Positions 1 to 15,980 of a stretch of 64,000 bases of DNA are shown here, piece by piece. Numbering within the stretch: position 1 is the first letter of the stretch; the number at the start of each line of letters is the position of its first letter. The notes below the pieces were generated by a model. That model was not told the DNA's origin, searched no databases, and was given only the letters and a program-made list of their open reading frames with translations. The stretch comes from Roseivirga sp. (GTDB lineage Bacteria > Bacteroidota > Bacteroidia > Cytophagales > Cyclobacteriaceae). Location of the stretch: positions 1 to 64,000 of the forward strand of contig JAAWWF010000004.1 in assembly GCA_021404565.1 (NCBI GenBank), given 5' to 3'. A program made the translations under genes and the position numbers.

Positions 1-21
1 ACCAATAACCAATAACCAAAA

Positions 22-2454
22 ATGCGAGTACTAAAATTCGGAGGCACATCAGTAGGAAGCGTAGAAGCCATAAAACAGACAGGCGAGATTATTCGCAGCA
101 CGGCCAACGAAGATCAGATTGTGGTGGTGGTATCTGCCGTAGGAGGTGTTACCAATCAGCTGATAGCCCTTGCCGACCAGGCGGCTCGAAGAGACAGAGC
201 TTATGAGGAATCACTGACTAAGCTCAAGGTACTGCATGCCGAAATATATGCTGAGTTGACAGGGACAGAAGATGAGGGCTTTATCGACAAGCTTTTCACC
301 CAGCTGGCAGAGATGTGCAAGGGCATTTTTCTGTTAAAGGAATTAACGGCACGCACCTCTGATTATATCCAGAGTTGTGGGGAACGACTCTCTTCGCACA
401 TCATCTTTCATTACCTGAAAGGGCAGGGAGTTGAGATTCAGCTTTACGATTCGCGCGACTACCTGATCACGGATAAAAACTTTGGTCATGCCAATCTGCT
501 TTGGCCTGTAAGCCGTGAGCGATTGACTACCATTAAAAAGACTATGTCGAAGGTGAGTTTGTTCCCTGGATTTGTGGCTTCTACAGAAGACAGAGAAACT
601 TCGACCTTAGGCCGGGGAGGCTCTGATTTTACGGCTTCACTGCTGGCAAATATGCTGGGTGCCGATGGTCTGGAAATCTGGACCGATGTGAACGGATTGA
701 TGACCGCAGACCCCCGTTTGGTCAAACAAGCCCATTTATTGGAGCATGTGTCATATGAAGAAGCACTGGAACTGTCCCATTTTGGAGCAAAGGTGCTATA
801 TCCTCCAAGCATTCAACCCGCCCTTGATAGTGGTATTCCTATCTGGGTAAAAAACACATTTGATCCTCATGGTCCCAGCACCAAAGTGACCAAAGAATGG
901 GATCAGGAAAAGCATCTGATCAGAGGCATTTCCAGCATCAAAGAAATAGCATTGCTCACATTATCGGGCAATGGCATGGTAGGTATTCCCAGCTTCTCTT
1001 TCAGGCTTTTTAAGGCCTTGTCTGAATCCAGGGTTAATGTAATTCTCATTACCCAGGCCTCCTCTGAACATTCCATCTGCGTAGGCATAGCGAGTGCTGA
1101 TGCGGGCATGGCCGCTGAGGCGGTAAGTCGCGAATTTGAAACAGAGCTGGAGCTTAGAAAGCTTGATCCGGTAGCTGTAGAGAATGACTTGTGTATTCTG
1201 GCCCTTGTGGGTTCTAACATGCGAGACCAGGTAGGCGTTAGCGGGCGTATGTTTAATACTTTGGGTACTAATGGTATCAGTGTGAAGGCTATTGCTCAGG
1301 GCTCTTCGGAGCGTAATATTTCAGCGGTAATCCATCAGTCAGATTTGAAAAAAGCGTTGAATACACTTCACGAGAGTTTCTTTTTGTCTGATGTAAAGAA
1401 AATCAACCTCTTTGTAGTGGGAGTGGGGAATGTTGGCAGGGCATTTTTAAGCCAGGTGCAAAAGCAACAGCGTATGCTTATCAAAGAGTTTAGTCTTGAC
1501 ATTCAGGTGGTGGGTATCGCCAATTCGCGCAAGGCTCACTTCGATGAACAGGGTATGGACTTAAATCACTGGCAGGATTCCCTGGCGAATGGCCAGGATG
1601 GTAACATTGAGGGATTTGTGGACCAAATGAAGTCCATGAACCTGAGGAATAGTGTTTTTATTGACATTACAGCCGCTAAGAGTATTTCCGAGGTGTATCA
1701 ACAATTGCTGGAGTCCAGCATATCTGTGATTACCCCGAACAAAATTGCCGCTACCCGGGAAATGTCTAAATACCTGGCGCTCAAATGGGCTACCAGGAAA
1801 TATGGCAGTCAGTTTTTGTTTGAAACCAATGTAGCAGCTGGTTTGCCAGTGATATCTACGCTAAATGATCTTTTCAAATCCGGAGATAAGGTACATGCTA
1901 TAGAAGCAGTTCTGAGTGGAACCCTCAATTACCTGTTTAATAACTATGATGGGAAAAAGCCATTTTCAACCATAGTGAAAGATGCTAAGACGCTGGGACT
2001 CACAGAGCCAGATCCGAGACTGGATTTATCGGGTGAGGATGTAATGCGTAAGCTGTTGATTCTGATCCGGGAAAGCGGCAGAAAGTTCGAGATGGAGCAA
2101 ATAAAGCTAATCCCCTTTCTGCCTGAAGCTTGTGAGCAGGCTGACGATCTGGAAGAATTTTACAATCTGTTGGATGAGCATGAGGGCCATTTCAAAGGAA
2201 TTTATGAGGATGCCAGGGCCGAAGGTGCACAGCTAAGGGTGGTAGCCAGTTTTAAGAATGGAGAAGCGAAAGTAGGTTTGCAGAAGGTGCAGAAAAGCCA
2301 TCCTTTCTACTACCTTGAGGGCAAAGACAACATTGTGCTCTTTCATACAGACAGGTATAGCGAGCAGCCTCTGGTAGTAAAAGGGGCCGGTGCCGGTGCA
2401 GAAGTCACCGCTTCTGGTATTTTTGCTGATGTGCTGCGGTTGGTTAATCGTTAG
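22..2454 (+). CDS. thrA: Bifunctional aspartokinase / homoserine dehydrogenase
   Basis: This cytoplasmic enzyme catalyses the first step (aspartate to aspartyl phosphate) and the third step (aspartate semialdehyde to homoserine) of the threonine/methionine branch. The N-terminal kinase opens with KFGGTSVG at residues 5-12. ACT-type regulatory segments occupy roughly residues 300-455. The homoserine dehydrogenase half begins near residue 463 with a Rossmann fold containing GVGNVG. The length of 810 residues matches E. coli-type ThrA fusions. The ATG lies 21 bases from the window edge, after a short accaataacc repeat, so the promoter is not visible. It is the first gene of thrA-thrB-thrC. Feedback inhibition by threonine is usual for the family but cannot be read from the sequence. 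Confidence 0.97.
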   Translation: MRVLKFGGTSVGSVEAIKQTGEIIRSTANEDQIVVVVSAVGGVTNQLIALADQAARRDRAYEESLTKLKVLHAEIYAELTGTEDEGFIDKLFTQLAEMCKGIFLLKELTARTSDYIQSCGERLSSHIIFHYLKGQGVEIQLYDSRDYLITDKNFGHANLLWPVSRERLTTIKKTMSKVSLFPGFVASTEDRETSTLGRGGSDFTASLLANMLGADGLEIWTDVNGLMTADPRLVKQAHLLEHVSYEEALELSHFGAKVLYPPSIQPALDSGIPIWVKNTFDPHGPSTKVTKEWDQEKHLIRGISSIKEIALLTLSGNGMVGIPSFSFRLFKALSESRVNVILITQASSEHSICVGIASADAGMAAEAVSREFETELELRKLDPVAVENDLCILALVGSNMRDQVGVSGRMFNTLGTNGISVKAIAQGSSERNISAVIHQSDLKKALNTLHESFFLSDVKKINLFVVGVGNVGRAFLSQVQKQQRMLIKEFSLDIQVVGIANSRKAHFDEQGMDLNHWQDSLANGQDGNIEGFVDQMKSMNLRNSVFIDITAAKSISEVYQQLLESSISVITPNKIAATREMSKYLALKWATRKYGSQFLFETNVAAGLPVISTLNDLFKSGDKVHAIEAVLSGTLNYLFNNYDGKKPFSTIVKDAKTLGLTEPDPRLDLSGEDVMRKLLILIRESGRKFEMEQIKLIPFLPEACEQADDLEEFYNLLDEHEGHFKGIYEDARAEGAQLRVVASFKNGEAKVGLQKVQKSHPFYYLEGKDNIVLFHTDRYSEQPLVVKGAGAGAEVTASGIFADVLRLVNR

Positions 2455-2791
2455 TTTTGTATTGATGGCAGGGGGATTAGTTAATAGTTATCAGTTAAAG
2501 GGTTTTTAGAGTTGTTGGGTTTTTTGAAGTAGGAAGACCACTTTCGCCTTAGGCTTCGGTGTCCGAGGTAGGAGGATCAACTTCGTCAAGGCTTAGTTGA
2601 TTGAAGTAAGAGGTAAGAGGACTCCGAATCGCTTAGCAACAAAGGTCAGACGGATTAGAAAAGAGGTTTTAGTCACAGTAAGAAACAGAGTTTTTGTACC
2701 GGATTTGACCCTAATAACCAATTTACGATTCAACTAATAACCAGATTGAGGCACTACAAATGATTGAAATACTAAAGCTGAATAAAGAGAC
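2455..2791. other. thrA-thrB intergenic region without a gene
   Basis: These 337 bases hold no convincing coding frame. They contain purine-rich low-complexity sequence (repeated gaagtaagaggtaagagg-like stretches near 2600-2630) and taataacca motifs near 2710-2745 that echo the accaataacc repeat upstream of thrA. No clear terminator hairpin was found, so thrB may be transcribed from thrA or from its own promoter here. Confidence 0.5.
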
Positions 2792-3715
2792 ATGAATCGT
2801 TCCGTAACAGTCCACGCCCCAGCGTCAGTAAGCAACGTAGGTCCGGGCTTCGATATCCTGGGATTTGCCCTGGATGGGATGGGCGATAAGATCACCCTTT
2901 CTACCCGGGAAGATGAGCAGTATGTGATTGAAGCGGTTGGTGCTGAGCTACCCATGAATCCTGAAAAAAATGTGGCTACGGTAGGACTGAGGTCTCTGTG
3001 CAATCATTTGGGTTATAAAGGTGGCTTTGATATCAAAATTGAAAAGAATTTTACCCCCGGAAGTGGGCTGGGGTCCTCAGCTTCCAGTGCAGCGGGAGCA
3101 GTCTTTGCAGCCAATGAGCTTTTGCTTGCTGGGTTGACCAAGGATGAGTTGGTACCCTTTGCCCTGGATGGGGAAGTGGTAGCATCTAAAAACCGGCATG
3201 CCGATAATATCGCTCCTTGTATGCTAGGCGGCTTTGTGGCTGTAAAAGGCTGTGATCCTTTTGATGCTTTTTCTGTTGATTACCCGAATGACTTAAAGGT
3301 GTTGATTGTATTCCCTGATGTGCCTATTAAAACGGCCGAAGCCCGGGAAATACTGCCCAAATCCATCGGTATGGCAACAGGGATCAGCCAGTCAGCAAAT
3401 ATGGCGGGCTTGATAACAGGGCTGATGCGCAGTGATTATGAATTAATTCGCAATTCACTTCATGATGAATTTGCTCAGCCTTATCGCAAGCAGCTGATAC
3501 CACATTATGATGAGGTCAGTGACCTGGCTTATGCGCATGAGGCTGTCGGCTTTAATATTTCGGGCAGCGGACCGGCCATGTTTGGCCTTTTCAAGGCGCA
3601 GGCCGAAACGAAAGCACTAAAGACAGCTATTGAAAAGATTTATAACCAGGCAGATATCGGTATCCAGTTTCATGAGTCGGGGATTAATCATCGGGGAGTC
3701 GAGCACCTGCGTTAA
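2792..3715 (+). CDS. thrB: Homoserine kinase
   Basis: This GHMP-family kinase phosphorylates homoserine to O-phosphohomoserine, the substrate of ThrC. The substrate-binding start of the family is seen at residues 9-20 (APASVSNVGPGF). The glycine/serine-rich ATP loop PGSGLGSSASS lies at about residues 89-99, and a C-terminal SGSGPAMFGL motif follows. The length of 307 residues is normal. It lies between thrA and thrC on the same strand but with unusually long gaps (337 and 255 bases), so tight co-translation is unlikely. Confidence 0.97.
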   Translation: MNRSVTVHAPASVSNVGPGFDILGFALDGMGDKITLSTREDEQYVIEAVGAELPMNPEKNVATVGLRSLCNHLGYKGGFDIKIEKNFTPGSGLGSSASSAAGAVFAANELLLAGLTKDELVPFALDGEVVASKNRHADNIAPCMLGGFVAVKGCDPFDAFSVDYPNDLKVLIVFPDVPIKTAEAREILPKSIGMATGISQSANMAGLITGLMRSDYELIRNSLHDEFAQPYRKQLIPHYDEVSDLAYAHEAVGFNISGSGPAMFGLFKAQAETKALKTAIEKIYNQADIGIQFHESGINHRGVEHLR

Positions 3716-3801
3716 AACTTCGGAGCTCAAGAAAATCTTGAATGTTGAATGATGAATTTTGAATCGTAGGACCCATAGAAATTCAATAACCGAACTGATC
3801 T

Positions 3802-3875
3802 GTCATTCTGAACTTGATTCAGAATCTGAGGTTGGAAGACTATTTTGTCAGACCCTGAAATGAATTCAGGGTGAC
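3802..3875. repeat. Dispersed double-hairpin intergenic repeat (copy 1)
   Basis: The sequence carries two small palindromes: TTCTGAA-CTTGA-TTCAGAA at the left and CCCTGAA-ATGAA-TTCAGGG at the right. They are bounded by gtcat and atgac-like ends that are inverted relative to each other. A related, more decayed element lies at 26341-26429 in this window. Repeats of this general form are common in Bacteroidota intergenic regions (recalled, not searched). It lies in the thrB-thrC gap. Confidence 0.6.
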
Positions 3876-3970
3876 TTTAGAAATATTAACCTGACTGCTT
3901 TTGGCCTTGAATTGTGATCTCAGAGCGATGACTTTTCATCCGTCACTAAACATTAAAAATTTATCATTTC

Positions 3971-5251
3971 ATGAAATACTACAGCACAAACAGAAAGTCA
4001 CCATCGGTTGGTTTTAAAGAGGCGGTGATCAACAGTTTGCCACCAGATAACGGACTGTATTTTCCGGAATCGATACCGGTCTTGAGTCCAGAAGTACTTA
4101 ATAATTTTCGCTCGATGGCTCTGCCGGAAATTGGCTTTGAAATGATGAAGGCCTTCGCTTCAGATATCCCTGAGGCTGATTTAAGGTCTATTTTGGAGGA
4201 TGTGCTCTCTTTCGATATTCCACTGGTTCAGGTGGAAGAAGATATTTACTCCCTGGAACTATATCACGGGCCTACTTATGCTTTCAAAGATGTGGGTGCC
4301 AGATTTCTCGCACGTTGCCTGGGATATTTCTCGCAGGATCAGGACGAGGAAGTGACAATTCTGGTGGCCACTTCCGGTGATACGGGTGGAGCAGTAGCCA
4401 ACGGCTTTTATGGAGTGGAAGGTGTAAAGGTGGTGATCTTGTATCCATCCGGTAAGGTGAGTGACCTGCAGGAAAAGCAGTTGACCACTTTGGGAGGCAA
4501 TATCTCCGCGCTCGAAGTAGATGGAGACTTTGACGATTGCCAGGCACTGGTAAAGCAGGCTTTTCTTGATAAAGAGTTGAATGAGAAGCTAAGCCTGACC
4601 TCAGCTAATTCAATCAATATTGCTCGCTGGATGCCACAGTCCATCTATTATGCCTGGATGCTGAAACAGCTGGAATCTGAAGATTTGCTGATAGCGGTAC
4701 CGAGTGGTAATTACGGTAATATCACTGCGGCTATGTTTGCGAAGCGACTGGGCTTTCCGGTAGGTAGTTTTCTGGCTTGCTCTAATGCGAACGATGTGGT
4801 GCCTCGCTACCTGGAAACAGCCGCTTACTCTCCTAAAGCTACCGTGGCTACTTATGCCAATGCCATGGATGTGAGTATGCCCAGTAACTTTCCTCGTATG
4901 CAGGAGCTTTATGACAGTTCTTACGAAGCTATTACAGCTGATGTAAGCGGTTTTACCCTCTCCGATGATCAGATACTCCAGACCATTTCCGATTGCAGGC
5001 GAGAAAGCAAATATCTGCTTGATCCGCATGGTGCTATCGGCTATGCAGCTCTTAAGCAACATTGCCAACCCGGACAAAGGGGGGTATTTCTGGAAACAGC
5101 TCACCCTATCAAGTTTGCACCTACCATGGCCAAAGCACTGGGGCAGGAATTGCATATGCCTGATTTTGCTGCTGGCTTAATGTCGAGGGAAAAGGTATCT
5201 CAGAAAATAGGGAAGGGGTATGGAGAATTAAAGGAGTGGTTGATGGAGTAA
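3971..5251 (+). CDS. thrC: Threonine synthase
   Basis: This PLP-dependent lyase converts O-phosphohomoserine to threonine, the last step of the pathway. The PLP lysine is K106 within HGPTYAFKDVGARF, and the glycine-rich phosphate-binding segment ATSGDTGGA follows. At 426 residues it is full length. It is the last gene of the threonine cluster. Downstream (8577-9058) lies a damaged second copy of its last ~160 codons, and a third copy of only the stop-codon region is at 8513-8538. The intact gene ends in GELKEWLME, whereas the damaged copy ends in EEFRDFLSR, so the two are different alleles. Confidence 0.97.
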   Translation: MKYYSTNRKSPSVGFKEAVINSLPPDNGLYFPESIPVLSPEVLNNFRSMALPEIGFEMMKAFASDIPEADLRSILEDVLSFDIPLVQVEEDIYSLELYHGPTYAFKDVGARFLARCLGYFSQDQDEEVTILVATSGDTGGAVANGFYGVEGVKVVILYPSGKVSDLQEKQLTTLGGNISALEVDGDFDDCQALVKQAFLDKELNEKLSLTSANSINIARWMPQSIYYAWMLKQLESEDLLIAVPSGNYGNITAAMFAKRLGFPVGSFLACSNANDVVPRYLETAAYSPKATVATYANAMDVSMPSNFPRMQELYDSSYEAITADVSGFTLSDDQILQTISDCRRESKYLLDPHGAIGYAALKQHCQPGQRGVFLETAHPIKFAPTMAKALGQELHMPDFAAGLMSREKVSQKIGKGYGELKEWLME

Positions 5252-5283
5252 ACCTTTGCTCGTCCTAAAATTAATGAACACAT

Positions 5284-6087
5284 TTATTCATCGAGGTATT
5301 TAGATTCTTCTAACAATTGGTCAAAAGTAAATGGTAAATTCTTATAAGTTTCTTTTAAGAAGGTATTTATCGTATGCTTGATTAGATGAAGGTAGTCCCC
5401 TGACTTAATTAGTTCTAACAGGCGGTCTTTTTTCTCTTCAAAATAGTTAAGCTTTGTCAGGGCTTCTTCAGAGTATGGACCGTTAGCATCACATTCTACT
5501 AAATATAAATCATAGGCGATTTTGAGACCACTTAAGTGATTCTCGTTTAGGTTACGGTATATGAGTCGTCTTCTCGCTGGCCTATTTTTGCCATTGATAT
5601 TTGTATGCTGAATTGTGAATTGGAGCTTGATCTTTAACTCTTTAGGAGCTAAAGAGTCACAGAGGTATCTACCATCAGTGGAGTGAAAAAAAAGATTGGA
5701 CATTTCATTAGCTGAACAGGGATTTAACAGAGGGTATTTACTCCTTTTCATGGAATTGCACGAATGACATGACCACACATAGTTGTCCCAGTCGAAGATA
5801 AAGTCTCCTTCAACATCTTTTGAGATAGGGAAGTGATGATCGACTTCTGCATCGTGCCCCGTGTCACTGTGAATACCACAGTATCCACAGTTTTTTAGAA
5901 AAAGTTTTTTTAAAGGTAATCTGATCCCCTCATTTAGCCAGGCTGCTACCGGTTTTTTAGGCAGAGGTTTTTCCTTGCTGAGTCTAGCTTGATTATATAA
6001 TTTCCAATCAGGGCGATGTTCAATATTTAATTTAGCCAGGAGAGCAATCGGGGATTCTGGAAAAGAATCTTTATTTATAAAGTGCAT
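5284..6087 (-). CDS. HNH endonuclease, PtuB-like (Septu-type defence effector)
   Basis: This is the probable nuclease effector of a two-gene anti-phage system. A zinc-finger HNH fold is clear: C67-x2-C70, D83-H84-H85, W100-D-N102, then C107-x2-C110-N111-x2-K114. This pattern is typical of PtuB/TIGR02646-type HNH proteins. The length of 267 residues fits PtuB, and the C-terminal half is helical and unassigned. It is the second gene of a minus-strand pair, with its ATG sharing a base with the stop of the ATPase gene at 6087, so the two are co-translated. It is convergent with thrC. Base composition is visibly AT-rich compared with thrC, suggesting horizontal transfer. Family assignment is by motif only. 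Confidence 0.8.
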   Translation of the reverse strand: MHFINKDSFPESPIALLAKLNIEHRPDWKLYNQARLSKEKPLPKKPVAAWLNEGIRLPLKKLFLKNCGYCGIHSDTGHDAEVDHHFPISKDVEGDFIFDWDNYVWSCHSCNSMKRSKYPLLNPCSANEMSNLFFHSTDGRYLCDSLAPKELKIKLQFTIQHTNINGKNRPARRRLIYRNLNENHLSGLKIAYDLYLVECDANGPYSEEALTKLNYFEEKKDRLLELIKSGDYLHLIKHTINTFLKETYKNLPFTFDQLLEESKYLDE

Positions 6088-8315
6088 TATTGTATTTTGT
6101 TTTTATACTCTTCAATTAGTTTATCCAATTCTTTTTCTTTTTGTTTAAGCTCTAGTTCATACTTTTTTAAGTCATCAGTTAATATTTCATTTTCAATTAA
6201 TCTTTCAATTGTCTCTAACAGCTGACTTGATTTGGCTCTGTCCTCCGTATGTTTCTTTAGTTCTTTTTGAAGCTCCTCCTTTGTTATAGTAGGAATATAC
6301 TCTGGCGTGTTGAAGATGAGTCTTAGAATATCCCTGTAGTTCGTAGTCCACGTATCGAACTCAATTTCATTAACATTTATTTCCTCTTTATCTCTTGATA
6401 TTTCTAATATCTGATCTCTATCCAGTCCTGCTACCATTAATGGAGAATGAGTGGTGCAAATGACCTGTGTTGTTGGAAATTTATCTCGGAGAATCTTTAA
6501 TAAGCGTGATTGCCAAATTGGATGTATAGAACTATCGATTTCGTCAATAATTAGAATGGATTTTTCTGATGAACTTGACTTTGGACTAGAAAGAGGAAAA
6601 GATTCAACCCTTCTTTGAATAAAGTATCCAATCCAGCCAATAACAATCTTGAAGCCTTGACTTAACAGTTTTAACGGTACCCCACTTGGCGAATCCTGAG
6701 AAGAAACTATAAGAATTGGGGGGGTGAATTGTTGTACAGTAATGAATGAAAGAGGACTCCCAGTAAGTTCCGAAATTATTTGGAAAGCATATTGAATTAT
6801 TGAAAATTCTCTCGTGTTTTTATGATTTTTCGAATTTTTTGCATCTCCGAAAAGGTTGGCTATCCAGTTGATAAACGAATCGAGTCTTTGGTCGTCAGAA
6901 TCATATAACAATGGAGTTAAATCATCAATATGTGGTTTAGTGTATTTATTTTGATCCATACTTGTCGTATTTCTTCCTCGTAATTGGGGAAATCCGACTA
7001 TTAGAGACTTTAGGTTAAATTCTCCAGATTTCAACTCGAAATCACCAGATGTTGTAAAGTCAATGATTCTGCCTTGATCCTTGCTTGTCAGTGTAACAGA
7101 GTTTTGATAATCAATTCCATCCAAGGAATATTGTAGTTTTATTTGACCCTTAGAGGCATAGCTAGTTTGACCGTTTTTGTCTATCGAATTTATTTTTAAG
7201 AGGCCCTTAAGGCTTATATCCGATTTATTATCAAAGTGATCTGTGCCTAAAATGGATAGTGCTAAAGCTCTAAGTATGGAGCTCTTGCCTTGACCATTTT
7301 CTCCTACAATACATGTCAATTCCTCGTTGAAATTTATGTTAGCATTTGAGAAATGACCAATATTTGTGAGCTTCAAAGATTTAAGTAATAGAGTTGGTTT
7401 ATGTTCTCTAAAGATGTTCAGAATGAGTGTTTCGAACTCTTCATGTGAAGAAAATGTAATTAGTTCTTCCTCATAATCTTTTTCGAGGCTGTCGCGTAAT
7501 TTTTCTATCTCCGCCCCGCGGTTGAGGTTTATATCTTGAAGGCCTAAAATTATGTCTTTCTGGAAGAGGGTTTTAAATGGGACGTTCAGTTTCTCACAAC
7601 GTTGGATAACTTGGAAAATCAAATCTTCGTTATCGTGGACGTCAAAACCGACTATTATGATAACGAAGGGAGAGTGCCTATCAATTTGATCGATCGAAGA
7701 CACCGAAGTGAATTTGACATTGGACTCTTGGAGAACGCCATGAAATATTGATTCAAATCTACTCTTTATTGAAACTATACTTGCGTTGATAAAAACAAGT
7801 ACATTCTTAAGGTTGATTCGTGACTTTTCTTCCTCAACTTCTACTTCAAGTAGTCTTGCTTTCTTTTCTTCATAACTGACATCAATGATTTCAGAGTCTA
7901 AGTACTTTACAAAGGATTTTAAGATGACCTTTAACTCGTTATTCAGGTTGTCTAGTCCGTGAATAAAGAACTTCAAATTGTCTGGAGGGACGGTTATTAG
8001 GGAAATCTTATTATTACTATCGAGTAAACTTAAGGCATTATTTTTAAAACCAATCGCTACATAAACGTGATGGTCTACTCTGTAATCGTTATAAGATGGT
8101 GTTGTATTTAGGAAGTGTTTAACCTTGGTTCTACCAGCAAAACTATTCGTACTACTTGCTCTTAAAAGAATTTTTTTATCACTCTCGAGATGTCCAAGAA
8201 ACAATGAACTTGTGGCAGTAGAATTCTTTTTATATTCTGTGATAAATCTCTCTGAGAAATTTAAATCTATGTAGGTTTGTAGATTTTTTAGAATATCTGA
8301 ATGAGTGAATAGCAT
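6087..8315 (-). CDS. AAA/ABC-type ATPase with extra N-terminal domains, PtuA-like
   Basis: This is the probable sensor/ATPase partner of the HNH nuclease. The C-terminal half is an SMC/ABC-like AAA15/AAA21 ATPase. Walker A GENGQGKS is at residues 338-345, signature LSQG at 551-554, Walker B ILIIDE at 587-592, H-loop TTHSP at 621-625, and a charged coiled coil at about 675-742. Known PtuA proteins are around 500 residues; this one has 742. The extra ~300 residues comprise an unassigned alpha/beta domain (1-145) and a Rossmann-like region (170-305) with strands NVLVFIN, SPFVIIIVGF and EELITF. That region superficially resembles TIR or DUF4062 folds, which is inference. Sampled AT content is very high (15 G+C in the 60 bases 6121-6180). 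Confidence 0.75.
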   Translation of the reverse strand: MLFTHSDILKNLQTYIDLNFSERFITEYKKNSTATSSLFLGHLESDKKILLRASSTNSFAGRTKVKHFLNTTPSYNDYRVDHHVYVAIGFKNNALSLLDSNNKISLITVPPDNLKFFIHGLDNLNNELKVILKSFVKYLDSEIIDVSYEEKKARLLEVEVEEEKSRINLKNVLVFINASIVSIKSRFESIFHGVLQESNVKFTSVSSIDQIDRHSPFVIIIVGFDVHDNEDLIFQVIQRCEKLNVPFKTLFQKDIILGLQDINLNRGAEIEKLRDSLEKDYEEELITFSSHEEFETLILNIFREHKPTLLLKSLKLTNIGHFSNANINFNEELTCIVGENGQGKSSILRALALSILGTDHFDNKSDISLKGLLKINSIDKNGQTSYASKGQIKLQYSLDGIDYQNSVTLTSKDQGRIIDFTTSGDFELKSGEFNLKSLIVGFPQLRGRNTTSMDQNKYTKPHIDDLTPLLYDSDDQRLDSFINWIANLFGDAKNSKNHKNTREFSIIQYAFQIISELTGSPLSFITVQQFTPPILIVSSQDSPSGVPLKLLSQGFKIVIGWIGYFIQRRVESFPLSSPKSSSSEKSILIIDEIDSSIHPIWQSRLLKILRDKFPTTQVICTTHSPLMVAGLDRDQILEISRDKEEINVNEIEFDTWTTNYRDILRLIFNTPEYIPTITKEELQKELKKHTEDRAKSSQLLETIERLIENEILTDDLKKYELELKQKEKELDKLIEEYKNKIQ

Positions 8316-8512
8316 TTTTTTAATCTATGTTAATTTTCATTAAAATAAAAATTAAATATTGACAGATTAGATTGCTGGAAAAGACTTGTTTCAAGCCCGA
8401 ACTGAGTACTAATAGTTTTGAATCTTGCTTGTGTTCATTACCAATTTATGTCAATTAGAAACAGAAAGTTCTGCACATCAAACTTGAATCCACGATGGCC
8501 AATACCCGGGGG

Positions 8513-8538
8513 AGTTTATGGACTTTCTGGTTCGTTAG
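8513..8538 (+). pseudogene. Fragment of the 3' tip of a thrC copy (tail A)
   Basis: The bases gggagtttatggactttctg and the following gttcgttag match the last codons of the thrC remnant at 9034-9058 (ggagtttcgggactttctga gtcgttag). They are followed, as in that copy, by a palindrome starting gcatc. The match begins abruptly after unrelated sequence. It is therefore a third, very short thrC tail in the window. Confidence 0.65.
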
Positions 8539-8540
8539 CG

Positions 8541-8565
8541 GCATCTGCGTTGTAAACGCAGATGC
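8541..8565. repeat. Perfect REP-like palindrome after thrC tail A
   Basis: This is an 11-bp perfect inverted repeat, gcatctgcgtt / aacgcagatgc, around a 3-base loop (gta). It stands three bases after a thrC-type stop codon. A related palindrome stands two bases after the stop codon of the longer thrC remnant (9061-9085). There is no T-run, so it is better described as a REP-like element than a canonical terminator. Confidence 0.65.
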
Positions 8566-8576
8566 GGGAAGACCTT

Positions 8577-9058
8577 TCTGGCCTGCTCTAATGCTAATGA
8601 TGTGGTGCCACGTTACACGGAAACAGGAGCTTATGAGCCCAAGGCCCCAGTAGCTACATACGCCAATGCCATGGATGTCAGTATGCCCAGTAACTTTCCG
8701 CGGATGCAGGAGCTTTATAATCACTCTTATGAAGCGATTACAGCCGAATGTAAGCGGTTTTACCCTCTCTGATGATCAGATACTCCAGACCATTGCCGAT
8801 TGCAGGCGAGAAAGCAAATATCTGCTTGATCCGCATGGTGCTATTGGCTATGCAACTCTCAAACAACATTGCCAACCTGGACAACGGGGAGTATTTCTGG
8901 AAACAGCTCACCCGATCAAGTTTGCACCTACCATGGTCAAAGCACTGGGGCAGGAATTGCATATGCCTGATTTTGCTGCTGGCTTAATGTCGAGGGAAAA
9001 GGTATCTGAGAAGATTGGGAAGGGGTATGAGGAGTTTCGGGACTTTCTGAGTCGTTAG
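8577..9058 (+). pseudogene. Truncated, frameshifted second copy of the thrC 3' end
   Basis: This is homologous to bases ~4778-5251 of the intact thrC and covers about the last 160 codons. An extra A near 8748 (gccgaatgtaagc against gctgatgtaagc) shifts the frame, so no full product is possible and the PLP-lysine half is absent. By hand alignment, about 32 of 165 bases differ before the insertion, mostly at third codon positions. Only about 14 of ~280 differ after it, up to the divergent tail. The copy is thus mosaic. It ends with its own stop and a pair of palindromes. A 130-codon frame starting at 8666 is partly out of frame and is not taken as a gene. Confidence 0.88.
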
Positions 9059-9060
9059 CC

Positions 9061-9109
9061 GCATCCGTGTTTGCATCGCGGACGCTTGAATTCCACATTT
9101 GCAATGTGG
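9061..9109. repeat. Two adjacent REP-like palindromes downstream of the thrC remnant
   Basis: The first is gcatccgtg...cgcggacgc (9061-9085), with 8 of 9 positions pairing if one G-U is allowed. The second is a perfect ccacatt-tgc-aatgtgg (9093-9109). A ttgaatt spacer separates them. Both share a ttgcaa/ttgca-like loop centre with the element at 8541-8565. The paired arrangement resembles REPINs mobilised by RAYT transposases; no RAYT gene is in the window. Confidence 0.55.
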
Positions 9110-9118
9110 GTATTTGCA

Positions 9119-9178
9119 TCTACTCCCTGAACCTCTCAATCACTTTGGGTATCTCAGCAAACAGGGTGGCTCGAAGCC
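9119..9178 (-). pseudogene. Possible C-terminal scrap of an unidentified gene
   Basis: Read on the minus strand, a frame gives LRATLFAEIPKVIERFRE followed by a stop at 9119. It has coding-like composition but is closed by an upstream in-frame stop about 22 codons before. It overlaps nothing and begins where the immunity gene ends. It may be a read-past remnant of the immunity locus or of another gene; no family was recognised. Confidence 0.25.
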
Positions 9179-9180
9179 TG

Positions 9181-9381
9181 TTATAGCCTTATAGGCTTGT
9201 AGCTAAGAGCCTTTTCCACTATCTCTTCCGGAGTCAAATCATCATAGAAAATGAGGTCGGTAACCTCCGGGTGAGGGACATTGCTGACAAGCTTGTCGAT
9301 AAGCAGATCAATCTCCTGTTCCGTCTTATTTTCCATTGAGATTATTTGTTGGACCAATTCTACTAATTCTTCTTTGCTCAT
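9181..9381 (-). CDS. Orphan colicin/pyocin-type immunity protein
   Basis: This small cytoplasmic protein of 66 residues resembles the colicin E / pyocin S immunity family (Pfam PF01320). Those proteins bind and neutralise a cognate HNH-type DNase bacteriocin. The diagnostic feature is the acidic helix region and the segment HPEVTDLIFYDDLTPEEIV, which matches the family's HPxxtDLIfyp-spEeIv pattern. The family is usually 80-90 residues; this copy is short at the C-terminus. No bacteriocin gene is adjacent, so it may protect against toxins of relatives or be a leftover of an incomplete cassette. It ends four bases from the ankyrin/PD40 gene on the same strand. Confidence 0.72.
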   Translation of the reverse strand: MSKEELVELVQQIISMENKTEQEIDLLIDKLVSNVPHPEVTDLIFYDDLTPEEIVEKALSYKPIRL

Positions 9382-9384
9382 TTC

Positions 9385-10770
9385 TTAGTTTCTAAACTCT
9401 TCAATTACCCTGGCATCCACCCAGTAAATATCCTGGTTGCTGGTATAGAAGAGGTACTTGCCATCTGCTGTCACAAAAGGACAAAGTTCATGCCCCGTGG
9501 TGTTGATTTTATCGCTCATATTCACGGCTGTGGTCCAGCTACCATCCGGCTTTTTAAAGCTGATATATAAATCTCCCCGGCCAAGGCCCTCTTCTTTGAT
9601 ACCACAGAAAATGATATAGGACTCATCGGGACTCACGAATACATCGGCCTCATAGTCTGCAGTATTGACTGGTACACCCAGTGAAACCGGCTTTTGAAAT
9701 ACACCATTGACAAATTTTGAAGAGTAGATATCAAGATCAGACCGCCTTCGCTCTGCCGGGGCATTTACGCTGGAAGAGAAATACATGGTGCCCTCATTGG
9801 TAAAAGAGATATAAAATTCGCTGGCTTCTGAGTTGATATTAGACCCGGCATTGATCGGCTCTGACCAGCCATCCTCGGTTTTTTCTACATACCAGATGTC
9901 ATGATACTCCTGTCTCTCCGTTCCATTTATCGGTCTTCTGGATATAAAGTACAGTCGTTGCTCATCAGGTGAGAGGAAGGGGTCATTGTAACTATAGCGT
10001 TCGTGAGACAGAATGATCTCAGGTTGGCTCCATTGGTTGTTAACCAGCCTGGAATACCGGATTTCGTTTTTGCCATTGACATCTACCGCATAGTAAAACT
10101 CCGTGGCAGCAGCATTAAAAACCGAACCAAACTCAGATTCTTCAGTAGAGATAAAATTGGGTGCAAAAAGCTGTCGTATCATACCCGGAGTTTTCTGCCC
10201 CATATAAGCCCCTATAGGTTGAATGATCCGTACCAGATTTTTGTCAGCTCCTTGCGTAATGAGCCAGTCAGCAATTTCCTTTGTTCCCGTTCGGGTGGCT
10301 ATTTCAAGCGGAGTGCTCCCCCGGTCATTCCTGATGTCTATAGCCACACCGTTTTCTGTCAGTTTTTTAACAAAGGGGAGGTTTTTTCTGAGAATGGCAG
10401 TCTCCAGCATAGCTGCTCCGTATTGTCCCGTCCAACCCTGATTACCTGGTAAAGCAATGAGCCTTTCGAAGAGGAGGGGGCGATTGTATCGAACGGTCAT
10501 ATGTAGCGGTGTCACTCCATCTCCATCCTCCAGACCTGTCTCTATGTCCTTATCGATTAAAAAGTTGACCACTTCGGGGCGATTGCATGCTACGGCCCAG
10601 TGAAGTAGGGACCTGCCGCGATTGTCTATGGTGTCCAGCGCATTACCAGATAAGAGGCTATCCAGTCTGACCAGGTTACCCCCACAGGCAGTTCTGAAAA
10701 TGTTTTGTGCCCTGGCATTGAAGGAGATAACAGCCAGTAAGAATAGAATAAGGAATCTGAACTTTTTCAT
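9385..10770 (-). CDS. Exported ankyrin-repeat / PD40 beta-propeller protein
   Basis: Residues 1-22 form a signal peptide ending ARAQ. Ankyrin repeats follow at about residues 35-185 (for example GRSLLHWAVACNRPEVVNFL and RGSTPLEIATRTGTKEIADW). WD40-like PD40/TolB propeller repeats occupy residues ~200-455 (LSPDEQRLYFIS, VSPDESYIIFCG, VTADGKYLFYTS). Ankyrins mediate protein contacts, while PD40 proteins of Bacteroidota are periplasmic or outer-membrane associated. The enzymatic role, if any, is unknown. Its ATG overlaps the TGA of the upstream SRPBCC gene (ATGA, 10767-10770), implying translational coupling. Confidence 0.85.
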   Translation of the reverse strand: MKKFRFLILFLLAVISFNARAQNIFRTACGGNLVRLDSLLSGNALDTIDNRGRSLLHWAVACNRPEVVNFLIDKDIETGLEDGDGVTPLHMTVRYNRPLLFERLIALPGNQGWTGQYGAAMLETAILRKNLPFVKKLTENGVAIDIRNDRGSTPLEIATRTGTKEIADWLITQGADKNLVRIIQPIGAYMGQKTPGMIRQLFAPNFISTEESEFGSVFNAAATEFYYAVDVNGKNEIRYSRLVNNQWSQPEIILSHERYSYNDPFLSPDEQRLYFISRRPINGTERQEYHDIWYVEKTEDGWSEPINAGSNINSEASEFYISFTNEGTMYFSSSVNAPAERRRSDLDIYSSKFVNGVFQKPVSLGVPVNTADYEADVFVSPDESYIIFCGIKEEGLGRGDLYISFKKPDGSWTTAVNMSDKINTTGHELCPFVTADGKYLFYTSNQDIYWVDARVIEEFRN

Positions 10771-11240
10771 TTTTTGGCCATCAGTTCCTTTGGAAAAGCA
10801 TCTTCAGTGAGGTTCAATCTTATTTTATGTTCCAGCCAGGCTTTCAATCCGGCCAGTACGAAAGTAAATCCTTTGGTTGAATCTTTGAGCTGGCTGGTAA
10901 GCTCGTCTCCACCTGTACGGAAGTCATAATTTGTAATTGTCAGAAAGGTGAGGCCTTTGTTCACTGAAAGGAATTCCCATTTTACGGTTGATCGATGATC
11001 TCCTTCACCCCATTCAATGATGATTATTTGATTTTCGACTATTTCAAGCACAACCACCGGAATGGTCAGGTTATACATTTGCCACTTCCACTCTAGTGTT
11101 CTTCCTGTTCTTAGTTTCCCAGTACTGTGTGTAAACCAAAACTTAGTGGTGATGTCGGGGTCAATAAATGCCTCAAAGACCTCCTTGACAGGTTTCCTGA
11201 TGCCCAGGGCAGTTTTGGACAGATTTACGGTTTCATTCAT
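10767..11240 (-). CDS. SRPBCC / AHSA1 domain protein
   Basis: This 157-residue START-like protein of the Activator of Hsp90 ATPase homologue type has the typical opening (residues ~15-45, VKEVFEAFIDPDITTKFWF). A central WEFLSV...LTITNY region and a C-terminal amphipathic helix (KGFTFVLAGLKAWLEH) follow. These proteins bind hydrophobic ligands; the ligand here is unknown. It is cytoplasmic with no signal peptide. It overlaps the following ankyrin/PD40 gene by four bases. Confidence 0.85.
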   Translation of the reverse strand: MNETVNLSKTALGIRKPVKEVFEAFIDPDITTKFWFTHSTGKLRTGRTLEWKWQMYNLTIPVVVLEIVENQIIIIEWGEGDHRSTVKWEFLSVNKGLTFLTITNYDFRTGGDELTSQLKDSTKGFTFVLAGLKAWLEHKIRLNLTEDAFPKELMAKK

Positions 11241-11317
11241 TTGATAGTTCCTTTACAAACACTGAAGAGAACTCTTTTTCTCTTTGGAAGTTGCCCAATA
11301 ACGAGGCAAAATCCAAT

Positions 11318-11391
11318 CTACTTCACTTTCTTATCCTGCCTGGCTACCGATTTTATGAACCTACCAATTTTGGGATATTCAAACTCATTTG
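11318..11391 (-). pseudogene. C-terminal remnant of a second HNH gene copy
   Basis: The minus-strand frame reads EFEYPKIGRFIKSVARQDKK-VK-stop, aligning with LLDHPEVAKFVKWAARQDKR-VK-stop at the end of the HNH gene 11971-12264. About half of the residues are identical, including the ARQDK block and the stop position. No start or zinc motif remains. It lies on the far side of the unrelated gene 11404-11913. Confidence 0.7.
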
Positions 11392-11403
11392 CTGTATTCC
11401 GTT

Positions 11404-11913
11404 TTACATCTTTATCATGACGCCATTTAGTTCTTTCTTAGGTATCCAGACACTCTTGGAAAACCTATTGGGAATATCGCTGATTCTTCCTCGGTTATCT
11501 TTGTAGTATGTCTCCATGTATAATCTGACTAAAAGAGAATCTGATTTGATCATTTCAATAACTGAATGATACACTCTAAGAACGCGATTATGGCTGTAGT
11601 TGAGACATTCCAGATACTGTTCATCATAAAAGCCCCAGTCGACATGAATCTCTCTTTTTTCTACTAGTTCAATTTCTTTGTTATCCAACATTATTGTTGC
11701 CGTATCCTCTTTTCCAACAAAATTAATTAGAAAGTCTGGCACCCTTGAAGTAGTGTCTGAGGCCGCTCTGAAGTCCAGTTTTATGTCTTTACCGATATCC
11801 GTTGGTTTGATAGAGTCAATGGGGATATAACCAATATCCCAACCGCCCTGAGCTAAACTAGAGAAGGGTATTAACAGTGTTGTATAGAATAGCAGTCTGC
11901 CAAAATATTTCAT
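11404..11913 (-). CDS. Secreted hypothetical protein
   Basis: I do not recognise this 169-residue protein. Residues 1-21 form a signal peptide (MKYFGRLLFYTTLLIPFSSLA), so it is probably periplasmic. The mature part is mixed charge with an acidic stretch (DWGFYDEQYLECLNYSHN) and no metal or catalytic motif that I can identify. It lies between an intact HNH gene and a remnant of an HNH 3' end, suggesting it was acquired as cargo. Confidence 0.6.
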   Translation of the reverse strand: MKYFGRLLFYTTLLIPFSSLAQGGWDIGYIPIDSIKPTDIGKDIKLDFRAASDTTSRVPDFLINFVGKEDTATIMLDNKEIELVEKREIHVDWGFYDEQYLECLNYSHNRVLRVYHSVIEMIKSDSLLVRLYMETYYKDNRGRISDIPNRFSKSVWIPKKELNGVMIKM

Positions 11914-11970
11914 GTCTTCGATTTAACGCATTATAGACGTTTGTGATATAAAATATATCTGAATTTGAAT

Positions 11971-12264
11971 CTACTTCACCCTCTTATCCTGTCTGGCAGC
12001 CCACTTTACAAACTTAGCCACCTCGGGGTGGTCCAGCAGTGCTTCTCTGGAATGATAAAACCGCCCCAGGTCCGTATGGTCAATATGCTTATGGATGGTC
12101 TTGTGACAATCACTGCAGAGTAATAATCCCCTGGTCTGCATTTCTTCTTTGCTGAACTGCTTAAGTAAAATGGACTTCTTATGTACCTTCTTGGGAATCA
12201 GGTGATGAAAGTTGAGGGGGCGTTCTCTTTCACATAAGGCGCAGGCATTTTGCTGTTCACTCAC
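11971..12264 (-). CDS. Small HNH endonuclease family protein
   Basis: This 97-residue protein resembles YisB-type HNH proteins. C7-x2-C10 occurs in NACALCERE, the HH pair in NFHHLIPKK at residues ~19-27, and a second zinc pair C52-x2-C55 with the nuclease-like histidine in LLLCSDCHKTIHKH. It probably binds zinc and DNA; whether it cuts specifically is unknown. It has no signal peptide. A remnant of a related 3' end is at 11318-11391. Confidence 0.8.
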   Translation of the reverse strand: MSEQQNACALCERERPLNFHHLIPKKVHKKSILLKQFSKEEMQTRGLLLCSDCHKTIHKHIDHTDLGRFYHSREALLDHPEVAKFVKWAARQDKRVK

Positions 12265-12359
12265 CCGATAAATGTAACGGTTGAAACCAACAGAGGCAAT
12301 CCAACCAGTTGCCGCTTGAAAATGATGTCAATAACATGCACTTGTTTAACTTTAGGTCT

Positions 12360-12626
12360 ATGAACATATATGCGTTAAACGGGCATAAGGTGAGACTAAT
12401 TCGTACCGATATGGGCTACGAGTACCAAAAAGAACGCGCTGAAAAATACCTGAAGCTTAGGGGAGTTTATACAGTGGACTATACGGAAGTTCATTCAGGA
12501 TCAACAGAGGTTTACCTGGAAGAGGTACCGGATCTGGCCTTCAATTCTACTTGTTTTGAAGACATAAAACCTCAATCACCAGAAGACGACAGTCGTCACG
12601 AGGATTACGATCGCTGGAATGCCTAG
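12360..12626 (+). CDS. Conserved hypothetical protein
   Basis: This small soluble protein has 88 residues if it starts at MNIYALNGHKVRLI. An upstream ATG at 12309 would add 17 poorly coding residues, so the internal start is preferred. The sequence has TDMGYEYQKERAEKYLKLRG, then a YTVDYTEVHSGSTEVYLEEVP strand region and a FNSTCFED segment. This matches a conserved Bacteroidota hypothetical family known to me only as unannotated. It is divergent from the HNH gene. Confidence 0.65.
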   Translation: MNIYALNGHKVRLIRTDMGYEYQKERAEKYLKLRGVYTVDYTEVHSGSTEVYLEEVPDLAFNSTCFEDIKPQSPEDDSRHEDYDRWNA

Positions 12627-12697
12627 CACATTTCAGTTAGTCTAAAAGGGAATTAATCGTTGCTCAAATCGCTTATTGAGTTAGAACTTTCAAAAAC

Positions 12698-13192
12698 ATG
12701 AGCTACACACCCGAAGACGGCTTTCCATATTACCTGGATTTAGTTAAGGATATCGACTGTCAATCACTGTTTACTTCTACCTCTACGTTCGATTTGCTAA
12801 GTTCCCTGACAGAGGAGCAGGGGAGTTATCGTTATGCTGCAGACAAATGGAGCATCAAGCAAGTGGTGGGACATATTACTGACCATGAGAGGATAAAGAT
12901 TCCCAGGGCATTTTTTACCAGCAGGGGACAGTCTATTGAGCTATGGGGTTACGACCAAAACAGCCTTGTTGCTAATAGTCGGTTTAACGAGCTGACCTTG
13001 AAAGAACTGGTTACGGACTATATGAATGTACGGAAGGCATCTGCCAGTTTTGTCGGTTCATTATCCGATAGTCAATTGCGAATAAGGGGACAGGCCCGCC
13101 AGTATGAGGTGAGTCTCGAAGACTTTCTCAGGTCCATTATTGGTCATGAAACACATCATATCAATATCATAAAGGAAAGGTACCTGTCCTGA
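12698..13192 (+). CDS. DinB family protein (DinB_2)
   Basis: This 164-residue four-helix-bundle protein belongs to the DinB/YfiT type and is probably a metal-dependent thiol-transferase-like enzyme. Candidate metal ligands are H59 or H63 in VVGHITDHERIK and the C-terminal cluster H150, H153 and H154 in GHETHHINIIKERYL. The DKWSIKQVVGH block is characteristic of the family. The substrate is unknown; it may act in detoxification. Confidence 0.87.
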   Translation: MSYTPEDGFPYYLDLVKDIDCQSLFTSTSTFDLLSSLTEEQGSYRYAADKWSIKQVVGHITDHERIKIPRAFFTSRGQSIELWGYDQNSLVANSRFNELTLKELVTDYMNVRKASASFVGSLSDSQLRIRGQARQYEVSLEDFLRSIIGHETHHINIIKERYLS

Positions 13193-13256
13193 GCTTGGAA
13201 AGCTGTAATAACCTTTATCAGCCTTAAAACCCTAATCTGATCTGTCTTTTTCAACC

Positions 13257-13940
13257 TCAGGCAGTAGCAAAGTTATCCCGTTCATAGGTAATGGCTTGCT
13301 TATATATGGCCAGAGCTTTGTCTTCGTCTATGGGGTTAGCCCGTTGATATGCATTTATAAAATTGCCCATCGCAAATGCACCGGAGGGGTCCTGATTGCC
13401 GGTGATCCAATCGGAATAAAGATTCCCTTCTTTAGCAGGGGCCAACTGTTGTCCGAGCCAGATCCACAGGTATTCGCAAGGCAACATCACGACCAGGGCG
13501 TAAATAGCTTCTTCATTTGCACATATGTTTGACTCAAAATCGGAGTAGGCCTTACAAACGGCTGTAGGGACTATACTATCACCATTTTTTACCCGCCAGG
13601 TATCAGGAAAGGTATTGTTATACGATTCATAGCTATCATGTTTGTGCTGGAGGAAAGCTTTAAGCACCGGATTTGTGGCCTTGTCGACCGCAGTTTGATA
13701 GTCTGCAGCCCCGTTAAAGCAATAATAAGCATCACTTACATTGAAAGCTCCATAGGTTTGCGGATGCAAGGTACCGGTGCCTATGCCCTGTACAAATTTG
13801 GTAGCGAGAGCTCCTTGAGCAATGTCTTCACAGGTATGCCACATCTTCCAGAACAGGGAGTTTTCAGGAGGCGGAGCCGTTGAAAGGTTGTGCAAATTGA
13901 TGGTTTCTTGCGGAAGCTGGATGGCTCTGTTGTTTTTCAT
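13257..13940 (-). CDS. TenA / thiaminase II-like protein
   Basis: This 227-residue all-helical protein has the haem-oxygenase-like fold of the TenA/PqqC group. The family pattern is seen in LFWKMWHTCEDIAQGALATK (residues ~29-48), YLWIWLGQQLAP and a C-terminal AITYERDNF. TenA proteins hydrolyse aminopyrimidines in thiamine salvage. The canonical catalytic cysteine was not placed with confidence, so the exact reaction is uncertain. No thiamine genes are adjacent. Confidence 0.7.
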   Translation of the reverse strand: MKNNRAIQLPQETINLHNLSTAPPPENSLFWKMWHTCEDIAQGALATKFVQGIGTGTLHPQTYGAFNVSDAYYCFNGAADYQTAVDKATNPVLKAFLQHKHDSYESYNNTFPDTWRVKNGDSIVPTAVCKAYSDFESNICANEEAIYALVVMLPCEYLWIWLGQQLAPAKEGNLYSDWITGNQDPSGAFAMGNFINAYQRANPIDEDKALAIYKQAITYERDNFATA

Positions 13941-14261
13941 TGAATTAATAGTGTTTTGTTAGCTTCTGAAGTTCATCAATACAGGGCATTATTCCCAATT
14001 ACAGCAGCAGATCTTTCCCATGCTGTTATCTTTGTTTTCAAGGTTAAAACAAGGTTGTTTTGAGGAGAAGAAAGGTAATAATGAGTCTGTTTTTATCGGC
14101 TGATTAAATCGCCTGCATCAGAGCCTCAGCCATTGTCATAAGGGCACTTTCAGGTGCGAAACAAAATGCTTCATGACCGTGAATCACATTGTTATGTGAT
14201 ATGTTCCATTAATCTCTGTCGGTGCTTGTGTTCTTTGAGGTTTTTATCATTTATTGATGTC
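13941..14261. other. Intergenic region with a possible gene scrap
   Basis: These 321 bases lie between the divergently oriented TenA-like and lipoprotein genes. No RNA gene or strong palindrome is seen. A minus-strand frame at 14104-14205 gives HEAFCFAPESALMTMAEAL and MQAI before a TAA and looks protein-coding, but it is closed by an upstream stop after about 33 codons. It could be the C-terminal remnant of a lost gene. Family unknown. Confidence 0.35.
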
Positions 14262-14870
14262 ATGAAAAAGGTTTATCTGATTTTTACCGTTGCTGTATTT
14301 GCCTTTGCGAGCTGCTCTACTGTCGATGAAGAGGCTGAAATGCGCAGCAAGGTAGAGAACTACTTTGCTGCCTGGAACAAGCAGGAATTTACCAGCGAAG
14401 CATTCAGAGGCTTTACCAGAGATACCACTTATACATGGTATTCTCCTGAGAAGGAAGGAGAGGGCATTCGATCTGTTTTTAACCCCAATTCCGGCTGGAA
14501 GCAGTGGGATGTTGCCTGGAATGGAGCTTAAACCTATCAGATTGAATCCATCGACATTGATGCAAACAAGATTACCGGCAGATTTAATGAGACGACAGAT
14601 TTTCTCAAGGAGATTGGCATGCCAGAGGGTTTTTCAGGGAACCTTACCTTTTGGTATGATGATGAACTGAAGGTGATTGAAAAGGTCTATGATTTTGATT
14701 CAGAGAATCGTAGCATGCACGACATGGTTAAGCCTATGGTAGAGTGGGCGAAAACCAACGAGGCTACGCTGGAAGGGATTACCAAAGTCTACCTGGCAAA
14801 TGGCTTTAAGCCCAGTACCGAAAATGCTGTGATCTGGAAGGAGATTTTGGAGGCGTACCGTAATCGCTGA
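14262..14870 (+). pseudogene. Lipoprotein with NTF2/SnoaL-like domain, interrupted by one in-frame stop
   Basis: The frame starts with a lipoprotein signal (MKKVYLIFTVAVFAFASCS, lipobox FASC). A nuclear-transport-factor-2-like domain follows (KVENYFAAWNKQEF at ~29-42). A TAA at codon 90 (14529-14531) interrupts it, yet the same frame continues as TYQIESIDIDANKITGRF to a stop at 14870. The total length of 203 codons is plausible. Two separate genes are unlikely because the downstream half has no good start and completes the domain. A sequencing error cannot be excluded. Confidence 0.7.
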
Positions 14871-14887
14871 TCATAGTAATAGGCTTT

Positions 14888-15376
14888 TTAACTGGCCTTT
14901 TTGGCTGTTAATAGCACATCCGTCCAGCAGGTTTTGGGCCTGTTGGCTGGGTAACCGTTTTCAGAGCGAAATGCCTTCCGCTCTTTGGTAAAGTCCCACC
15001 AGGTTTTGCTCGTATCTCCGGTGTTGGCGTAATGGACGATGAGTCGAAACTGGTCTTCAACACAAGAGTCTATCCAATACCCTTTTTTCAGTTCATAATC
15101 ATCCGTCAGTTTTGCCCCATCTTTACCTTTCAGCTCATTGATAGAATAATAGCCCAAAAACACCAGGTCTTCTGCAAATTTAATCCCGATGGAAGGGATG
15201 GTCTGGAACAGGGCAAGTGCATAAAGTTCTTTTGCCCGCTCTGTTGTAACGCCCAATAGCACTTCCAGTTCATCCGCAGCATAGTCGAGCACCTGTGCGA
15301 TTTTGACCTTATTCTTTCTCAGGCTGGCTTTCTCCTGATCACTCAGGGGTAGTTTTATGTTGCTCCTGGTCTTCAT
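14888..15376 (-). CDS. Cdd1-type helix-hairpin-helix protein
   Basis: This 162-residue protein matches the pathogenicity-locus Cdd1 family. A HhH-like stretch lies at residues ~55-80 (ALFQTIPSIGIKFAEDLVFLG), followed by the conserved CVEDQFRLIVHYA and WWDFTKERKAFR blocks. HhH domains contact DNA backbones; the biological role is unknown. It shares strand and a 13-base gap with the upstream Crp-type regulator, so they may be co-transcribed. Confidence 0.82.
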   Translation of the reverse strand: MKTRSNIKLPLSDQEKASLRKNKVKIAQVLDYAADELEVLLGVTTERAKELYALALFQTIPSIGIKFAEDLVFLGYYSINELKGKDGAKLTDDYELKKGYWIDSCVEDQFRLIVHYANTGDTSKTWWDFTKERKAFRSENGYPANRPKTCWTDVLLTAKKAS

Positions 15377-15389
15377 CTACTTAAAGAAA

Positions 15390-15980
15390 TTAACGCCCGA
15401 CCATCTTTCTACGAAGTATGCTGAAAAACTCGGGGGTCATTCCCAAATAACTGGCTACATGCTTTTGGGCCACCCGCTGTAAAATATGCGGGTACTTTTC
15501 CAGGTATTGGAGGTAGCGCTCTTCGGCAGTCATAGAGATATTCTGGATAATACGATCATTTTGCGCAATCAATGCGTTTTGAAAACTGAGCCTGAATCGT
15601 TTCTCCATTTTAGGTACTTTTTCCAGCAATTTATTCCAGTTGGCCAGACTTATCTGGAGTACCTGAGTGTCTTCCAGGGCCTGGATGTAATATGAGGCAG
15701 GTGTTTCATTGATGAAGCTTTTAAGGTCGCCACACCACCAGTTTTCGATATTGAGTGAGAGGGTATGTTCCGTACCTGACATGTCTATCATATATACCCT
15801 CAGACAGCCTTTGAGTATATAAAACTCATGCCTGGAGATAATCCCTTTTTGAAGCAATAGTGACTTTCGAGGGTAGAATTTGGCTTCGTGGCATTCCAGA
15901 ATGGTCTCTTCTTCAGTCGGGTCTATTGCTATGAATTCTTTTAGATGATCGAGAAGGGGAGCTTTAGAAATTTCCGCCAT
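15390..15980 (-). CDS. Crp/Fnr-family transcriptional regulator
   Basis: This 196-residue regulator has an N-terminal cyclic-nucleotide-binding-type jelly roll (residues ~20-125, with YPRKSLLLQKGIISRHEFYI) and a C-terminal winged helix (HVASYLGMTPEFFSILRRKM, residues ~173-192). Many Bacteroidota members of this type lack cAMP-binding residues, and the ligand is unknown. Its ATG directly follows the stop of the TlpA-like gene on the same strand (15980/15981), so they form an operon. Confidence 0.9.
   Translation of the reverse strand: MAEISKAPLLDHLKEFIAIDPTEEETILECHEAKFYPRKSLLLQKGIISRHEFYILKGCLRVYMIDMSGTEHTLSLNIENWWCGDLKSFINETPASYYIQALEDTQVLQISLANWNKLLEKVPKMEKRFRLSFQNALIAQNDRIIQNISMTAEERYLQYLEKYPHILQRVAQKHVASYLGMTPEFFSILRRKMVGR

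Follow-up and report, generated by a model that had tools for sequence, protein, structure and literature searches.

A predicted, divergent Septu (PtuAB) pair with an unusually long ATPase, flanked by thrC and its remnants in Roseivirga sp.

Septu type I consists of two proteins, the ATPase PtuA and the HNH protein PtuB, to which type I-A retrons (Septu type II) add a reverse transcriptase. In the portions of the literature available to us, a characterised Septu needs its Walker and HNH residues for protection and cuts tRNA-Tyr (PMC13096335), another Septu of E. coli is reported as a DNA cutter, and in retron Eco7 the reverse transcriptase and its multicopy single-stranded DNA (msDNA) neutralise a toxic PtuAB (both PMC11555353). 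Plain Septu has no such check, and in these same portions the trigger that switches it on is not settled. Here we describe a PtuAB-like pair from Roseivirga sp. (assembly GCA_021404565.1), encoded within the first 64,000 nucleotides of contig JAAWWF010000004.1, the stretch that we call the window. By sequence and predicted fold the pair is a divergent Septu type I, a new variant within a known system. That it is a horizontally acquired anti-phage pair is our prediction, held with somewhat better than even confidence.

The two genes lie on the minus strand, the ATPase (6087..8315, 742 residues within an open frame of 745) followed by the HNH gene (5284..6087, 267 residues), and both frames are intact. 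The TAA stop of the former and the ATG start of the latter have one A in common (...ATAATGC...). A preliminary description of the window had placed two overlapping minus-strand open reading frames (ORFs) at these coordinates, with an ATPase of about 740 residues and an AT-rich composition, all of which our measurements bear out: the GC content of the pair is 0.343 and 0.372, against 0.461-0.485 for thrC, for the genes that we take from their sequence to be thrA and thrB, and for the gene at 9385-10770. One more neighbour (10767-11240) stands at 0.422. A sigma-70 promoter scan gave 12 occurrences, with 11.9 expected. Names of neighbouring genes were assigned by eye unless another basis is given.

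From residue ~309 onward, the ATPase is a PtuA, by sequence and predicted fold. It matches PtuA in PADLOC at 7.1e-41, and Pfam places AAA_21 (5e-20) from residue 333 and AAA_15 from 311. The nearest chains among PDB sequences are PtuA (best 5.3e-20). With Foldseek, 505 matches reach E 0.001, and every one of the 50 listed is a chain from a Septu or type I-A retron entry. The AlphaFold2 model searched was built from an alignment of 17 sequences, the ATPase itself and 16 of 20 homologous ORFs. Its predicted local distance difference test (pLDDT) values reach up to 89 in blocks of the core and lie mostly below 50 in residues 1-310. The expected motifs are in place, with Walker A (GENGQGKSS, 338-346), LSQGF at 551, Walker B with D591/E592, and TTHSP at 621-625; G338, N340, G343, K344, D591, E592, and H623 are among the positions invariant in the alignment. 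The partner protein has the residues of an HNH nuclease (C67xxC70, DHH at 83-85, N102, C107xxC110); its residues 67-116 match PF01844 (7.7e-06; 26.4 bits, cut-off 21.4), and PADLOC returns PtuB at 8.2e-15, with no useful match among PDB sequences. The proposed combination of a Septu-type HNH protein with a PtuA-like ATPase holds. The ATPase has matches at 1e-10 in 17 of 395 genomes of the class, this one included; a scan of genome contigs gave two weak loci, covering residues 310-631 and 551-631 only; plasmids gave nine partial matches to the core and phages none to the whole protein; and genus relatives hold no close homologue of the cassette.

What sets this ATPase apart is its N-terminal region (codons 1-310, 7386..8315 on the minus strand). 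Residues 1-310 have no Pfam match (160-310 give only noise under the cut-off), no match to any PADLOC model, none in NCBIfam above chance, and none among PDB sequences or viral contigs; plasmids match only at E = 4, and PHROGs gives weak partial matches only, the best 0.0069 across 39 residues. We also searched overlapping samples of the phylum (395 genomes), order (390), and family (196), with one genome per species, where the only good match was the window itself, which suggests that this part is rare, fast-changing, or both. Of the weak genome matches, two at E ≤0.001 and three at E ≤0.01, four are interrupted by stops and the fifth (24% across residues 40-117) falls in what by eye we take to be a CRISPR Cmr1 subunit, and all five were judged to be chance. 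Next to this Cmr1-like protein, a frame of 258 residues appears from its sequence to encode a further HNH protein. Fusion of an HNH domain to PtuA was likewise considered and rejected: the PADLOC PtuA models listed range from 289 to 773 positions, and the three longest (726, 733, and 773) carry an HNH front, as seen from the matches of this genome's own HNH proteins there, but residues 1-310 match none of them.

If the pair acts as characterised PtuAB does, the ATPase would form an ATP-binding oligomer that holds the HNH subunit. On infection this subunit would cut nucleic acid, either phage DNA or a host tRNA, and so stop phage multiplication while sacrificing the cell. Less certainly, residues 1-310 could form a built-in regulatory or trigger-sensing module, taking in cis the role played by reverse transcriptase and msDNA in retron PtuAB. 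The N-terminal part is probably regulatory, most likely setting when PtuAB fires. A tenable though less likely alternative is that it is a degenerate or structural appendage, serving oligomer contact or solubility, and that the pair works as an ordinary Septu. In favour of this, the front part is rare and without matches, and a PtuA devoid of it is the rule: the frames that hold the 18 ATPase matches from other genomes have 318-494 residues, too few in every case for a front part of such size. Yet the 310 residues stay open, with no decay, and the other long front part encoded in this genome is 49% conserved in a second genome.

This other front part shows that N-terminally extended PtuA as such is already catalogued. 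Contig C81 of the same genome carries two further Septu pairs in tandem (G000:C81:147001-166500), a 569-residue ATPase with a 316-residue HNH protein and a 377-residue ATPase with a 293-residue HNH protein, and type I restriction genes flank them (hsdR-like 4973-7936, hsdS-like 14315-15526, and hsdM-like 15539-16996, in coordinates of that stretch). The 569-residue ATPase fits the PADLOC model PDLC00287 (584 positions) over almost its whole length, front part included, with residues 1-550 aligned to positions 1-558. Its front part occurs in 2 of 394 other genomes of the class and recurs on another PtuA (49%) and on a nucleoside triphosphatase (37%) that by eye we presume to be KAP-like, with a membrane stretch. 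This gives it the look of a mobile module, one for which Pfam has no name. The ATPase described here resembles this extended PtuA in joining a PtuA core to a non-HNH front part, but the front part of PDLC00287 spans about 190 residues and has no detectable kinship with residues 1-165 of ours. A three-member profile of the former scored 1.4 bits on the latter, and 481 of the 1,965 shuffles listed scored higher.

The preliminary description had left two N-terminal segments unassigned, one of them Rossmann-like (170-305), and had raised the possibility of a TIR- or DUF4062-type domain, which would join Septu cleavage to a NAD- or nucleotide-linked module. We find this doubtful. The lack of a family stands, and the alternating order of strands and helices in residues 171-304 fits the Rossmann-like assignment; the model of residues 168-309 suggests a flavodoxin-like fold, albeit at low confidence, with a pLDDT of only 39.6. 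Foldseek, proposed as a check, returned no hit for the N-terminal model at E 0.001 or better. When folds were compared with VIA-align, TIR domains tied, among the rows listed, with unrelated proteins such as arginine decarboxylase, and response regulators reached up to 7.9. At the place expected for the TIR catalytic Glu, alignment by hand puts I233 or V236, with E230 about one helix turn off, a weak comparison. Pfam finds neither TIR nor DUF4062 in the region. For DUF4062 (PF13271), of which we built a profile of our own from 29 of 30 fetched loci (one, under 100 residues, was dropped), residues 160-310 scored -0.2 bits; 957 of the 1,967 shuffles listed, from 2,000 made, scored higher, the best at 8.7. 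The earlier interpretation thus survives as a Septu-type pair with an unusual ATPase front, whereas the TIR or DUF4062 composite does not emerge from the data. A bolder version of the regulatory proposal strikes us as unlikely. In it, residues 1-310, one half of them TIR-like and Rossmannoid, are a new module that senses infection and takes the place of the retron part as the PtuAB switch, and such cassettes spread without an integrase, by recombination anchored in the conserved 3' end of a biosynthetic gene.

The surroundings of the pair, on the other hand, bear on how it came to be there. The cassette lies between an intact, convergent thrC (threonine synthase; 3971..5251, plus strand, 426 residues) and a partial copy of the same gene on that strand (8575..9058, 484 bp), which covers thrC from roughly residue 266 through its stop and carries a one-base frameshift. 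This duplication, absent from the preliminary description, is the only direct repeat of at least 70 nt found in the 64 kb. A second short piece resembling the end of thrC (8511..8570, plus strand) has a perfect 11-bp hairpin and is 75% identical to 9031-9090. The name thrC derives from our reading of the sequence, from Pfam on the fragment copy (two weak matches, one of them below the cut-off) and from relatives. Identity between the copy and thrC is 81% across a first 172 nt and 94% across 289 nt, and falls to 41% in the last 22 nt. Of 12 relatives, only the closest, G009, shares both flanks and genes beyond within the stretches fetched; its thrC ends in EWLMK, much like the EWLME of the intact gene here, and in the 81% stretch it stands at 78%. 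The copy being nearly as far from thrC as G009 is, at least one thrC end probably came from another lineage. A 97-residue HNH-like protein of the window (11971-12264, minus strand) is 78% conserved in G009 and thus looks inherited, outside the cassette. Among seven genus relatives, followed for up to 7 kb each, leucine-synthesis genes lie downstream of thrC in six, and by eye no defence gene does so in any. The insert (5252-8510) contains no integrase or transposase among its two ORFs of at least 80 residues; the other ORF of that size is only part of one overlying the thrC pieces.

A low-GC cassette flanked by an intact thrC and a decaying 3' copy points to insertion by recombination at thrC. 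The cassette probably entered at the 3' end of this gene, an event that would leave a whole thrC on one side and the decaying copy on the other; the order of events and the donor are inferred. The thrC remnants illustrate a way in which a cassette of this kind could come in with no integrase or transposase in sight. It is very improbable that the pair arrived along with thrC debris as a decaying relic and now lacks any function, for while it adjoins a frameshifted fragment and is without close homologues in the genus, both ORFs are intact, their motifs complete, and stop and start coupled. Several observations do weigh against the prediction of an acquired, self-regulated anti-phage pair. Judged by eye from neighbouring ORFs, the cassette stands alone among non-defence genes, with no defence island. 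No donor was seen, nor an empty site, for at the place of the cassette G009 has other genes, some 9 kb of them. The NCBIfam equivalogs for PtuA and PtuB of retron Ec78 score far under their cut-offs (119 bits against 500 for PtuA, 24.7 against 150 for PtuB). As the searches brought up no relative of residues 1-310, their putative regulatory role is suggested solely by position and precedent.

Comparable arrangements have been described, as far as the available parts of two papers go. Homology-facilitated illegitimate recombination was proposed for modules of type VI secretion systems (PMC5361080), which share with our locus a one-sided homologous anchor, an inserted module, and an old 3' piece displaced downstream; here the anchor is a threonine-synthesis gene, and no donor is seen. 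Long target duplications are reported around restriction-modification genes (PMC3031569), so that there too defence-type genes sit between long direct repeats derived from the target, but the repeats here are 81-94% alike, one with extra thrC-end debris, and no empty site is seen. Separately, at the edge of the C81 island (2109-2452 and 4715-4882), a 731-residue helicase-like gene has its final 92 nt repeated at 92% identity, along with 70 nt of the stretch downstream of it (91%), the copies lying 2.4-2.6 kb further on. Next to them is what seems to be the beginning of a methyltransferase gene. Here, for a second time, remnants of a gene end accompany genes of defence.

Among systems built on PtuA, the PtuXYZ operon, in the part of its description available (PMC11980606), is likewise a candidate for defence that includes an ATPase resembling PtuA, but its partners are a DUF262 protein and a PIN/BECR toxin, and the ATPase domain is N-terminal. 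Type I-A retrons are closer, in that the effector pair is alike and supplies top fold matches. They differ in their retron parts: here no reverse transcriptase was seen by eye among ORFs of at least 80 residues in 1-14000, no retron family occurs among Rfam matches up to E 1 within 3700-9500, and the equivalog scores stay below cut-off. No retron part having been found, the pair is classed as a divergent Septu type I. Both elements of that type are present, a PtuA-type ABC ATPase (by PADLOC, PDB sequence, and Foldseek) and an adjacent PtuB-type HNH gene (by PADLOC, PF01844 above cut-off, and the one-base overlap). The likeness extends to the order of ATPase then HNH, the PADLOC models, and the fold; the difference lies in some 310 additional N-terminal residues, covered by no PADLOC PtuA model, which give this PtuA a large N-terminal part of its own and would make it a natural test of whether sensing can be built in, in cis.
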